Positions 32,796-39,765 of a DNA stretch of 64,000 nucleotides are shown in pieces. This DNA is from Polynucleobacter hirudinilacicola (GTDB taxonomy: Bacteria; Pseudomonadota; Gammaproteobacteria; Burkholderiales; Burkholderiaceae), in NCBI RefSeq assembly GCF_002192535.1, contig NZ_NAIA01000003.1:277952-341951 (forward strand), in the 5' to 3' direction. The position numbers and the translations under genes are program-made. The notes below the pieces were generated by a model. The model saw only the letters and a program-made list of their open reading frames with translations, was not told the origin of the DNA and did no database searches. How positions within the stretch are numbered: the stretch's first letter is position 1; the number at the start of each line of letters is the position of its first letter.

Positions 32796-33491
32796 TTAAC
32801 GCCTTTGGTAACTATTGGCGAGGTTATCTTGCAAAACATGGGCGATACCATTTGCGATCAAAGATAAATCTTTATCCAGCACTCTGCTTTGATATATCCA
32901 GCCTGAAGGTAGCTTGAGTTGTTTTTCCAAATCCGGAAGATCCTCGATCATCAGACTGGGATTGACGATTTGCGAGTAGGACTGCATGACATAAATCTCT
33001 CCCGCGGGAGAAGTGAGCTCATAGATCGAGCTACCTGCCTTATAAACAAAATTAGTAGTACGGTTAATTTGATTGGGCATGAAATGCTTGCTACCCAGTA
33101 TTTGTTTCAAGAGCCCTAGCTCAATTGTTGCCCTTAAGTTCATTTCCATACCGCTAAAAGACTCTTTAACATTATTAACAGTAGCGCCAGCTGCATGAAT
33201 CTCATCCATCACCCAATAACGCGGGCCGTTTAACAACGCAAAAGATGCGTCGTACTTACTCGTTATAGATTCCTTGGTAATTGCCTTCCATTGCTCCTCA
33301 GGGCATAAATTAAGACCCTGCGTATTAAAAACTTTGACCTCCAAACTCAGCCAGTGACGTTTACCGTAGAGGATCTCGCAATAGCGTTGGTTCCGAAGAT
33401 TAGAAACACTTTTTTCAAAGATTGGTTGTGCATTAACAATTCCAGCACCGAGGCAGATAGCAATCAAAAGCAATGAATAGATTTTTTTCAT
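32796..33491 (-). CDS. Secreted protein of unknown function
   Basis: A 231-residue protein with a clear signal peptide (MKKIYSLLLIAICLGAGIVNA, cleavage expected near residue 21). The mature part has no motif I recognise; it contains one pair of early cysteines (RYCEILYGKRH and NLCPEEQ) that could form a disulfide, and repeated aromatic residues. It is a single gene between the pnt terminator and the groEL terminator. Likely periplasmic; a surfactant- or lipoprotein-like role would be guesswork. An extended -10 (TGTTACAGT) lies six bases before the ATG. Confidence 0.8.
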   Translation of the reverse strand: MKKIYSLLLIAICLGAGIVNAQPIFEKSVSNLRNQRYCEILYGKRHWLSLEVKVFNTQGLNLCPEEQWKAITKESITSKYDASFALLNGPRYWVMDEIHAAGATVNNVKESFSGMEMNLRATIELGLLKQILGSKHFMPNQINRTTNFVYKAGSSIYELTSPAGEIYVMQSYSQIVNPSLMIEDLPDLEKQLKLPSGWIYQSRVLDKDLSLIANGIAHVLQDNLANSYQRR

Positions 33492-35655: not shown

Positions 35656-35682
35656 TTAGCACTCGCGTGTAGGGAGTGCTGA
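35656..35682 (-). promoter_or_regulatory. CIRCE operator (HrcA binding site) of groESL
   Basis: TTAGCACTC-N9-GAGTGCTGA matches the CIRCE consensus TTAGCACTC-N9-GAGTGCTAA in 17 of 18 arm bases. It lies between the predicted promoter and groES, starting at the -10 box, as in other bacteria where HrcA represses the operon until heat shock. The hrcA gene itself is not in this window. Confidence 0.92.
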
Positions 35683-35711: not shown

Positions 35712-35810
35712 GGGCAGGAGCATAAATTCCTGAGAAATGGGCCCTTATTTATAATGGGGACAGGTTGGTAGGTCGATTCCTACAGATAAATCAGCCCAAA
35801 GCCCTTACCG

Positions 35811-35852
35811 CTCCAATCCGTCCTGCCTAGACTGGACAGTCACCGATTGGAG
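35811..35852 (+). promoter_or_regulatory. Inverted repeat covering the EAL gene ribosome binding site
   Basis: CTCCAATC (35811-35818) pairs perfectly with GATTGGAG (35845-35852), and an inner GTCC/GGAC pair (35820-35823 with 35834-35837) extends the fold. The right arm contains the GGAG that serves the start codon at 35860, so folding would hide the ribosome binding site. It is an RNA switch candidate of no class I recognise. Confidence 0.45.
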
Positions 35853-35859
35853 AATGCTG

Positions 35860-36702
35860 ATGAGCCCGAAATCCCGGCTGTACACGCTTGTAAAGGCATG
35901 GAAGAACAAACCCTTCCAAGAAGTCCGCGACGCCTGTGGCGCGCCCTGGCTTGGCATGAGTAGCCAAGCCCTCGAAGAACACCAATCCTGGTCCAAGCGA
36001 CAAGCGATTAGCCATGAACCCATTTTTAACTGCAAGGGAACAAAACTGACCGGCTCACTATTTAGACCTCTGCTAACAGCTTCCGATATGCAATTACTGC
36101 GTTTATTCATGGAAGGCTTGGATGCAATTTCCTACTGGTATCGCAGTGGTCGTTTTATTCCTGGCATTTTGCCAATGCCAACTCATGCAATCGCCTCTAG
36201 CGGCTACATCGATGCCCTGAGTGATCTGATTCTGAACTCACGACTACCAGTCGGGTTGATTGCACTAGGAATCCCATCACTGCCTGAGCCGGATATTGCC
36301 GATGCTTACAAAGAGGGTTTGCTACGCATGCGCCGACTAGGTGTCTTGCTGCATTTCATGAATTTCACGGGGACGGTAGAGCAACTGCACTGGATCAATG
36401 AGATGCAAATAGAGGGAATTCATATTGATATGGGGCAGCTTCGTGATGAAGTCCTATCAAATGATGTGATTAGAGAATTAAAACGGTCGCCCTTTTCACC
36501 CACACAAATTTATGCAAGCAATATCAACCTTGTCAAAGACTTAGAGAATGCATCTGTAATGCAAGTAGATCATGGCTACGGCGGCCTCATGCTATCACCA
36601 CTCAGTCGCCATCAGATTCTTCAAATCAATGATAGCCGTATCGCTAAGGCTATTTTTTCGCTGCACCCTCATCCACAACCAAACCAAAATGGAGACCAGT
36701 AA
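35860..36702 (+). CDS. Degenerate EAL-domain protein, probably non-catalytic (BvgR-like position)
   Basis: A 280-residue protein whose fold follows the EAL phosphodiesterase domain: HEPIFNCKG near residue 49, GIHIDMGQL near residue 188, and HGYGGLMLSPLS at the C-terminus (equivalent to QGY..SRP). The residues that bind metal and c-di-GMP are gone: the EAL signature reads GSLFRP, the DDFG motif reads FMNFTG, and the catalytic Lys-x-Asp reads HID. It is therefore expected to act by protein contact, as YdiV does, and not by cleaving c-di-GMP. ATG 35860 is preferred over 35854 because GGAG is then eight bases upstream. It is first in an operon with a BvgA-like regulator and a BvgS-like kinase (TAATG overlap). 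Confidence 0.8.
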   Translation: MSPKSRLYTLVKAWKNKPFQEVRDACGAPWLGMSSQALEEHQSWSKRQAISHEPIFNCKGTKLTGSLFRPLLTASDMQLLRLFMEGLDAISYWYRSGRFIPGILPMPTHAIASSGYIDALSDLILNSRLPVGLIALGIPSLPEPDIADAYKEGLLRMRRLGVLLHFMNFTGTVEQLHWINEMQIEGIHIDMGQLRDEVLSNDVIRELKRSPFSPTQIYASNINLVKDLENASVMQVDHGYGGLMLSPLSRHQILQINDSRIAKAIFSLHPHPQPNQNGDQ

Positions 36703-37325
36703 TGAGAAAACGCGTGATGTTAGTAGATGACCATCCGGCTATGCTGATGGCCTTAAAAAGTATGTTGCAAGACCAGCTGTTATTTGAAATCGCAGGTCAA
36801 GCTCAGAATGGCGAAGAATGCCTTCGATCCATCAAAGAGATGAATCCTAATATGGTGATTCTGGATCTTGATATGCCCAAGACCGATGGGTTTGATGTCA
36901 TTCGGCGTATTGGCTTGATGTATCCCGATGTGCGAGTGCTGGTTCTATCTAGCATGGATGAGGCGGTTTATGGCGGAAGAGTTCGATCACTTGGTGGGCA
37001 TGGCTTTGTCAATAAAACTGCAGGGGCTGATGTGATCTTGGCAGCCTGTGTAGCGATCTCACAAGGGTATAACTTTTTCACTCATGGAAAGAATGGCAAC
37101 AGCTCATTAAGTGATAACGATAAATTAGCGCTGATTTCTGATCGTGAGTTACAAGTCATGAAGTATCTCGGAAAGGGGAATACCAATCAGCAGATTTCAG
37201 ACATGCTGCATATCAGTAATAAAACGGTAGCTACTTACAAGACCAGAGTTTTTGACAAACTTGGTATTAACAACATTGCCGACTTAATCTTGTTCTGCCG
37301 CATGAACAAGATCATCGAAAGCTAA
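36702..37325 (+). CDS. LuxR/NarL-family response regulator, BvgA/EvgA-like
   Basis: A 207-residue two-domain regulator. The receiver domain (about residues 1-120) has the acidic pocket VDDHP, phospho-acceptor D55 in VILDLDMPKTDG, and VNKTAG with the conserved Lys. The C-terminal helix-turn-helix contains ISDRELQVMKYLGKG and ISNKTVATYKTRVFDKLG, close to the BvgA/EvgA pattern SNKTVSTYKxRLLxKL. It is expected to bind DNA as a phosphorylated dimer. The start overlaps the EAL stop by one base and the kinase follows after seven bases, so all three are one operon. Targets are unknown; no obvious tandem regulator site was located in the operon leader. Confidence 0.9.
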   Translation: MRKRVMLVDDHPAMLMALKSMLQDQLLFEIAGQAQNGEECLRSIKEMNPNMVILDLDMPKTDGFDVIRRIGLMYPDVRVLVLSSMDEAVYGGRVRSLGGHGFVNKTAGADVILAACVAISQGYNFFTHGKNGNSSLSDNDKLALISDRELQVMKYLGKGNTNQQISDMLHISNKTVATYKTRVFDKLGINNIADLILFCRMNKIIES

Positions 37326-37332
37326 AAGCAAT

Positions 37333-39765
37333 ATGCGTCGATTCATCGTCTGTACATCACTACTAATTTGCCCGCTACTGAATCAGGCAAGTGAGATAGC
37401 TCACGCACAAGCCCTGAGCCCAGCAGAACAGCGATGGATCGACCAGCATCCTGTAGTTCACTTCAGCATTCATGAAAAATATGCACACTATTTAAAAAAT
37501 GATGCTAAAAATTCTGGTGTCTTTCATGGGCTCTTGAAAAAACTAGGTGAATTTACTGGACAAGAATTTTCACCCAAGTGGAGAAAAACTGATCATGAGG
37601 GATTAAAGCAATTAGCTGCTGGTGAAGTAGATTTTATGATCGACCCACCCAGCCTCAATGATGAATATCTCCGATTTGGCTCTTTATCAGAGGCAATCTT
37701 TTGGGGGCATGATGCTGTGCTAACGGCGAGTCCAACAAGCATTGAAATAATTGCTCCTGCCAATATTGCTTACTTTGATCGCGGATACGAAAACCAACCC
37801 TTACCAAGACACCCGCAAGCAAAAATTTCTAATAATGTTCAGAAACTGGTTTTAGACTTACTGAAAAATGATATTGAGGCCTTAGTACTACCCATTCGAC
37901 TCGCACATCAGCTAGTCCAGGATCTCAATACATCAGAGCTTCGTGTAGATGGACTGTACCAGCGAGAGCCTTTTGAATATCGCTGGCTTATTGCAAACCA
38001 AAGCAGCGCTTTACATAATCTGCTCAATAGCTTCCTAAACGACTTAGATCCCATTGAATCAAGTCAATTATTTGCGCTTGGAAATCCGAGTGTTGCAAAC
38101 AGCCAGAGTCATTATTGGGCAAAACTACCTTGGCTGTTCACCCTCACTTTAATCACGCTAGGAGGTATCGTATTTTGGCGTCTACAAAAGAGACAGCATT
38201 TACAGGAGCAAGCAGCGGAAGATTTGATGGCCTCCAAAGATTTAGCTGAAAAAGCAAATGCAGCGAAATCTGCCTTTCTAGCAACGATGAGCCACGAAAT
38301 CCGCACTCCGATGAATGCAATCTTAGGGGTGCAAGAGTTATTACTGAGCAGTCGGCAGTTTCCCGATAATGAAAAATCGCTTCTGAAGAGTGCGCATTCT
38401 TCGGCTGAATCATTGCTAGGTATTCTGAATCAAGTATTAGATCTTTCAAAAATTGAGGCTGGCAAGCTCACTCTCAATTTAGAGCCCTGTTGCCTCAATA
38501 CACTCATTGATGATATTCATTCAGCATTTTCAACTGTGGCGCATAAGCAAGGCCTCATCTTGCATACCTCCAAAGATCCACGGATTGCCGCTGTCTTAAT
38601 GATTGATACTTTGCGACTTCGTCAAATTTTACAGAACCTATTGAGCAATGCGATTAAATTTACCGATCGAGGTGAGGTTTATTTCTCCATCAGCGTGCTG
38701 GCGGATGATCATGCTGGGCAGTTAATTGAGTTCAGAATTATTGATACCGGCATTGGTATGGGTGCCGAGGAAATCAAGCTAGCCCTTCAAGCCTTTGAGC
38801 AAGTACCTGGTAAAGCAGATCAGCAAAATGGTACTGGTTTGGGCCTCACCATTACCAACCATTTGGTCAACTCGATGAGTGGTCAACTCAATTTTGAGAG
38901 CGCTCCCGGCTTCGGGAGCAATATTCATTTCTGCGTGGCACTTCCTCGCACCAGCATTGCCGCATCGAGAAACTCTCTTGCCGATAGAAGTTGGGCCTCT
39001 AGAAAACTATTTTCTAGAAATATCCAAAATCAAGATAGGTCACTCCAAGCCTTAGTGGTTGAAGACCATCCTGCTAGTAGGCAAATCATATCCTTGCAAC
39101 TACAGGCCTTAGGTATTGAGGTGAGCGTTTGCGAAAGTGCAAACGAAGCTCTTGAATTGATATCCCAACAATATTTCGACCTCTTGCTTGCAGATCAATC
39201 CATTCCCGGAATGCAAGGTTCAGAGTTAGCAAAACGTGTACGCTCCCTAGGTCATCGTGAGATCGTAATCATTGGCATCACTGCGGATATCTATGCTTTA
39301 GATGCTCGGCACCAATTTCTTGCTGCCGGCATGAATGGGGTTCTCATTAAGCCGCTAAGCTTAATGACCTTAGAAAATGAATTGGCTCGTTACTTCAACA
39401 CTCAAGACATTTCAGAGAAAAGTGAGGGATCAGGTGCTTTTCAAGAATACTCATTCGAACTCTTTTCTAATCTCTTGAAAAAAAGCCCAGGTCATATCGT
39501 TCTCATATTGGATGAGGTTAAAAAGGTACATGACGATACCGTTGCCATACTGAAAGTCGAAACTGTAGATGAAGCTATTTTGGCAAGTATGATTCATAAA
39601 ATTAAAGGTGGCGCTCAACTATTAAGCGCCCAGCGCTTTATTGCCTGCTGTGAAGCCCTTGAAACGATAGGCCCGATTCCTGACAGAGTGAGCGCATTGA
39701 TTCAATTACTGGAAGATCAAAACCGACTAATTGAATGCTATAAGGCAAAGTACGTAAGTAATTAA
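37333..39765 (+). CDS. Unorthodox sensor kinase: periplasmic solute-binding domain, HisKA, HATPase, receiver, Hpt (BvgS-like)
   Basis: An 810-residue phosphorelay kinase. In order: signal peptide/first helix (residues 1-26), one periplasmic solute-binding-type domain (about 30-250, beginning LSPAEQRWIDQHP), membrane helix (about 265-283), HisKA with H321 in MSHEIRTPMN, HATPase with DTGIGM and GTGLGLT, receiver with D621 in LLLADQSIPGM and LIKPLS, and Hpt with H755 in MIHKIKGGAQLLSA. Bordetella BvgS has two periplasmic domains and a cytoplasmic PAS; here only one of the former and a short linker are seen. The ligand is unknown. It follows its likely partner regulator by seven bases, and phosphate should pass H321-D621-H755-D55. 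Confidence 0.9.
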   Translation: MRRFIVCTSLLICPLLNQASEIAHAQALSPAEQRWIDQHPVVHFSIHEKYAHYLKNDAKNSGVFHGLLKKLGEFTGQEFSPKWRKTDHEGLKQLAAGEVDFMIDPPSLNDEYLRFGSLSEAIFWGHDAVLTASPTSIEIIAPANIAYFDRGYENQPLPRHPQAKISNNVQKLVLDLLKNDIEALVLPIRLAHQLVQDLNTSELRVDGLYQREPFEYRWLIANQSSALHNLLNSFLNDLDPIESSQLFALGNPSVANSQSHYWAKLPWLFTLTLITLGGIVFWRLQKRQHLQEQAAEDLMASKDLAEKANAAKSAFLATMSHEIRTPMNAILGVQELLLSSRQFPDNEKSLLKSAHSSAESLLGILNQVLDLSKIEAGKLTLNLEPCCLNTLIDDIHSAFSTVAHKQGLILHTSKDPRIAAVLMIDTLRLRQILQNLLSNAIKFTDRGEVYFSISVLADDHAGQLIEFRIIDTGIGMGAEEIKLALQAFEQVPGKADQQNGTGLGLTITNHLVNSMSGQLNFESAPGFGSNIHFCVALPRTSIAASRNSLADRSWASRKLFSRNIQNQDRSLQALVVEDHPASRQIISLQLQALGIEVSVCESANEALELISQQYFDLLLADQSIPGMQGSELAKRVRSLGHREIVIIGITADIYALDARHQFLAAGMNGVLIKPLSLMTLENELARYFNTQDISEKSEGSGAFQEYSFELFSNLLKKSPGHIVLILDEVKKVHDDTVAILKVETVDEAILASMIHKIKGGAQLLSAQRFIACCEALETIGPIPDRVSALIQLLEDQNRLIECYKAKYVSN

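Follow-up and report, generated by a model that had tools for sequence, protein, structure and literature searches.

EAL-fold regulators that have lost their catalytic residues are already known. BvgR, encoded beside bvgS and activated by BvgA~P, lacks 12 of 13 EAL residues, and its mechanism is unknown (PMC11537037, PMC12805831). YdiV binds FlhD; c-di-GMP is neither bound nor hydrolysed by it (PMC3510510). By what mode dead EAL proteins such as BvgR act, and whether they need c-di-GMP, is acknowledged as an open question (PMC12805831). What is new at the locus described here is a genus-wide subfamily of such proteins that is encoded in a phosphorelay operon and kept in genomes without detectable c-di-GMP synthases. 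No published description of this Polynucleobacter subfamily was found in the literature searched.

The window, a stretch of 64,000 nucleotides from Polynucleobacter hirudinilacicola, carries on its forward strand a gene (35860..36702) for a degenerate EAL-fold protein of 280 aa and class III type, as assigned from orthologues, profiles and an AlphaFold model. Translation starts at the ATG at 35860, with a GGAGA Shine-Dalgarno sequence about 6 nt upstream, and the orthologues begin at the same ATG with a conserved M(S/T)PK start; the ATG at 35854 was rejected as lying too near the GGAGA. The protein opens with a conserved basic helix (residues 4-17, modelled with low confidence), followed by a linker and by an EAL-like barrel spanning approximately residues 50-265 in the AlphaFold model. 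A role of the helix as amphipathic membrane anchor was discarded, its hydrophobic moment not exceeding that of shuffled sequences in most members.

Taken by itself, the window protein matches nothing in a Pfam search. Nevertheless, 19 of 29 orthologues match PF00563, with a best value of 2.4e-8 and some barely past the cut-off; the family profile retrieves EAL structures from the PDB, RocR first (4e-5); and hhalign aligns the family with several canonical EAL domains at 98.7% probability. The AlphaFold (AF2) model has a mean pLDDT of 79, most blocks of the barrel exceeding 90, and a Foldseek search with it returns EAL structures for all 50 best matches (best E 2.2e-12). As judged from profiles and model, the homology to EAL domains is thus real, if distant. 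The earlier note on this DNA, made from the sequence alone, had read the protein as an EAL domain with its overall fold kept and had proposed structure prediction and alignment to EAL entries of the PDB as a check; Pfam on the orthologues, the PDB profile match, hhalign and AF2/Foldseek all agree with this reading, and the Foldseek top 50 contains EAL structures only.

The same note had held that all catalytic residues were gone, which the alignments bear out. Residues were mapped by hhalign onto the canonical GGDEF-EAL protein that this genome encodes, and conservation was counted over 57 orthologues with identities as low as about 25%. The glutamate of the EAL motif is absent; its site corresponds approximately to S66-L67 of the GSLF stretch (36055..36060), the register here being uncertain, since canonical EALs have about 20 residues more in this segment. 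The metal-binding Asn of NxS is replaced by P105 (36172..36174; P in 56/57 orthologues), the two Glu of ExxE by G137 and S140, and the two metal-binding Asp of DDFG by M167-N168 (36358..36363), the whole motif reading M-N-F-T at residues 167-170. Further along, H188 (36421..36423; H in 56/57) stands in place of the catalytic Lys of KxD, S220 (36517..36519) in place of the Glu of EGVE, and Y240 (36577..36579; Y in 56/57) in place of the Gln of QGY, all codons being on the forward strand. None of the eight metal-binding and catalytic residues (E, N, E, D, D, K, E, Q) is therefore present in the window protein. Across the 57 orthologues, no residue of the active phosphodiesterase set is kept as a family feature, and a search for a family-wide acidic metal ligand found none, so that no conserved Glu or Asp occupies the metal sites. 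The sole acidic residue retained is D190 of the HID stretch, present in 36/57 and not conserved in the family. The pocket is a rebuilt one and not the product of drift, P105, H188 and Y240 having become fixed anew. Near-invariant residues also include W93, P130, G132, R159, G161, R195, D227, G241, H251 and Q252.

The degenerate EAL gene is the first of an operon and overlaps by one base (TAATG) the start of a gene (36702..37325, forward strand) for a response regulator of NarL/EvgA/BvgA type, with REC and GerE HTH domains according to domain searches. EvgA ranks first among its relatives (3e-41 in NCBIfam, 3e-33 in the PDB), with a score of 141 bits that lies below the EvgA equivalog cut-off of 251. 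Seven bases past the regulator gene begins that of an unorthodox hybrid kinase of 810 aa (37333..39765, forward strand), which combines a periplasmic Venus-flytrap-like (VFT) sensor with HisKA, HATPase, REC and Hpt domains. The best PDB match of the sensor is the BvgS VFT (4.6e-4), whereas the kinase reaches 219 bits against an EvgS equivalog cut-off of 1995. The trio is divergent from groES-groEL in the window. The order degenerate EAL-regulator-kinase holds in 20/20 divergent loci, in which the EAL protein falls to 25-30% identity, with groESL before the trio and a PBP4-type gene after it in most cases. The groESL operon bears a CIRCE element (TTAGCACTC-N9-GAGTGCTGA, 35656-35682) indicative of ordinary HrcA-type control. 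On the reverse strand, between pntB and groEL, lies a secreted-looking ORF of 231 aa (32796-33491) without Pfam or NCBIfam match.

The degenerate EAL protein is present in 169 of 186 Polynucleobacter genomes. Beyond the genus, profile searches at family and order level found generic EAL domains only, and a scan of a genome collection with the window protein retrieved only Polynucleobacter and MAG records from Burkholderiaceae or beta-proteobacteria.

Several described systems resemble this arrangement in part. Like BvgR, as described in PMC11537037, the protein is a stand-alone EAL fold that has lost nearly all catalytic residues (class III), its gene stands beside those of a NarL-type regulator and a Venus-flytrap unorthodox kinase, and its expression is predicted to be controlled by the regulator. 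However, bvgR is downstream of bvgS, whereas the Polynucleobacter gene is upstream, overlaps the regulator start and is co-transcribed, in hosts that are often without a detectable c-di-GMP synthase. The enterobacterial anti-FlhDC proteins YdiV/STM1344 and STM1697 share the dead EAL fold and, according to the literature, act by contact without binding c-di-GMP, but their genome context is different and FlhD is missing from most of the genus. The RocR/PvrR loci (Roc1, Pvr) also combine an EAL protein with a regulator of NarL type and a kinase resembling BvgS. RocR carries a REC domain and is active as a phosphodiesterase, whereas the Polynucleobacter protein has neither REC domain nor catalytic residues. 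Finally, the EvgAS system of E. coli and BvgAS provide the best matches of the regulator (EvgA) and of the sensor (BvgS VFT), and differ in that the present pair scores far below the EvgA/EvgS equivalog cut-offs, has a shorter sensor and is accompanied by the additional EAL gene.

Upstream of the operon, phylogenetic footprinting reveals a palindrome, GTAGG-N4-TTCCTAC (35768..35783, forward strand), predicted to be the binding box of the response regulator, and a TAGACT sequence (35828..35833, forward strand) predicted to be the -10 element of the operon promoter. The arms of the palindrome are fixed and its four-base spacer is variable; it is exact in 60 of 74 loci and carries one mismatch in five more. 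Its distance to TAGACT is exactly 44 nt in 62/74 loci, and the same spacing is seen, as judged by eye, in the distant loci L047 and L049. With TAGACT as the -10 element, the palindrome would be centred at about -64, a usual position for an activator. Scanning for the exact palindrome gives the operon site and almost nothing else in 12 of 13 genomes, with one extra site in G034. This near-unique occurrence at a fixed 44 nt from TAGACT leads to the prediction that the regulator controls its own operon through the box. With up to one mismatch, the genome of P. hirudinilacicola contains two palindrome sites, against eight for a reversed control pattern, so that no regulon can be read from this search. 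An inverted repeat, CTCCAATC...GATTGGAG (35811-35852), whose 3' arm includes the Shine-Dalgarno sequence of the EAL gene, is conserved in the nearest clade only. The corresponding candidate, a conserved RNA hairpin over the Shine-Dalgarno sequence, was rejected (fold z = -2.2, no Rfam match), and it is absent from mid-distant and distant loci.

Such a gene might simply be the remnant of a phosphodiesterase in decay, riding along in the operon. The loss of the catalytic residues fits this explanation, as do seven eroding loci, most of them in reduced genomes, in which the gene is frameshifted or interrupted by a stop. However, the gene is intact in most of the genus, the promoter is conserved, and comparison with close orthologues gives a dN/dS of about 0.12; the response regulator gives about 0.01 and the sensor domain of the kinase about 0.17. 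Since the value of the EAL gene is accompanied by three new near-invariant residues at former catalytic positions, the catalytic loss reads as an old, selected change rather than as decay. Decay, very improbable on these grounds, is largely refuted already. The eroding loci also bear on the rank of the protein in the system: the EAL gene is broken in 7/7 and the regulator intact in 5/7, which argues for an accessory rather than a core component, and the kinase is intact as well in two of the seven (G031 and G110), so that the phosphorelay appears able to outlive the EAL protein. At L198 (649-1472, G110) and L193 (Polynucleobacter sp. 71A-WALBACH), a single frameshift affects the EAL gene, the regulator and kinase being intact; in such an isolate genome it reflects either a recent loss or an assembly error. 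A non-catalytic c-di-GMP receptor of the FimX, LapD or BvgR-model type, in which the dead pocket binds the dinucleotide and signals to the phosphorelay, can also be envisaged. The EAL fold is present, the host genome encodes two GGDEF proteins, one of them a canonical GGDEF-EAL protein, and BvgR has been proposed as such an effector (PMC12805831). Against it, every ligand and metal position carries a replacement, and the substrate-loop segment, which bears EALLRW in canonical EALs, is shortened by about 20 residues. GGDEF domains are found in 128 of 186 genomes of the genus, control genomes giving the expected signal, and 53 of the 169 carriers of the degenerate EAL protein have no detectable GGDEF domain, with a strong EAL match in only one of the 53. 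Nine of these (G007, G034, G039, G072, G074, G077, G093, G125 and G184) are single-contig genomes with at least 99% completeness and an intact degenerate EAL gene. Whether a genome has the gene does not depend on GGDEF (Fisher p = 1.0), and the dN/dS of the gene is alike in the GGDEF-less genomes (0.10 versus 0.108). Because the gene is retained under equal selection without detectable GGDEF, c-di-GMP is unlikely as its ligand and c-di-GMP dependence unlikely as its conserved function; a receptor role is improbable, and the suggestion of c-di-GMP binding made in the earlier note is not supported. A protein kept without a detectable c-di-GMP synthase probably acts, therefore, by touching another protein.

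The target of this contact might lie outside the operon, the regulator serving mainly to express the EAL protein, which would then block another regulator, on the model of YdiV blocking FlhD or of BvgR indirectly controlling motility. The predicted box is nearly unique to the promoter of the EAL gene, which could thus be the main output, and BvgR behaves as a BvgA-activated effector. FlhD itself was rejected as partner, being absent from the genome of P. hirudinilacicola and from 164/186 genomes of the genus (present in 22/186); no other candidate was found, and the strict co-location with regulator and kinase favours a local role. An outside target is consequently doubtful. Some Polynucleobacter genomes, mostly FlhD-positive, contain two ORFs in tandem, about 540 and 440 aa long, that match EAL domains weakly, as at L204 (1310-2935 and 4329-5639, G038) and in G087, G115 and G168; they adjoin another LuxR-type regulator and look like EAL + HDOD (YuxH-like) proteins.

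The preferred reading is a local one: the degenerate EAL protein is probably an accessory regulator that acts by contact on the adjacent BvgAS/EvgAS-like phosphorelay. The kinase would sense a periplasmic signal and phosphorylate the response regulator, which would act through the palindromic box to activate the operon encoding it; in this proposal, the EAL protein is therefore made together with its partners. Without hydrolysing or needing c-di-GMP, it would then tune the output through direct contact, for which the response regulator is the likeliest target and the kinase the second choice. The position of the gene directly before the regulator and the BvgS-like kinase in 20/20 divergent loci makes the YdiV/BvgR-like contact mode suggested in the earlier note the best reading. 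Operon membership is no proof of contact between the EAL protein and its partners, and the response regulator is about ten-fold more constrained than the EAL protein, so that no tight co-evolving interface is evident. We infer the contact mode, the partner and the sign of its effect, as well as the binding of the box by the operon's own regulator; partner, sign and mechanism would follow by analogy from the way the operon is built and from BvgR and YdiV, the two precedents in the literature. A more tentative version of the local role, for which the odds are somewhat against, sees in the rebuilt EAL pocket a third dedicated phosphorelay component in c-di-GMP-free bacteria, bridging regulator and kinase or binding another ligand.

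The carriers of this protein are environmental freshwater bacteria. Polynucleobacter offers a natural experiment in which a dead EAL protein in a BvgAS-like operon is under equal selection with and without detectable diguanylate cyclases. If the proposed function is true, the EAL domain would be recruitable as a component of a phosphorelay.
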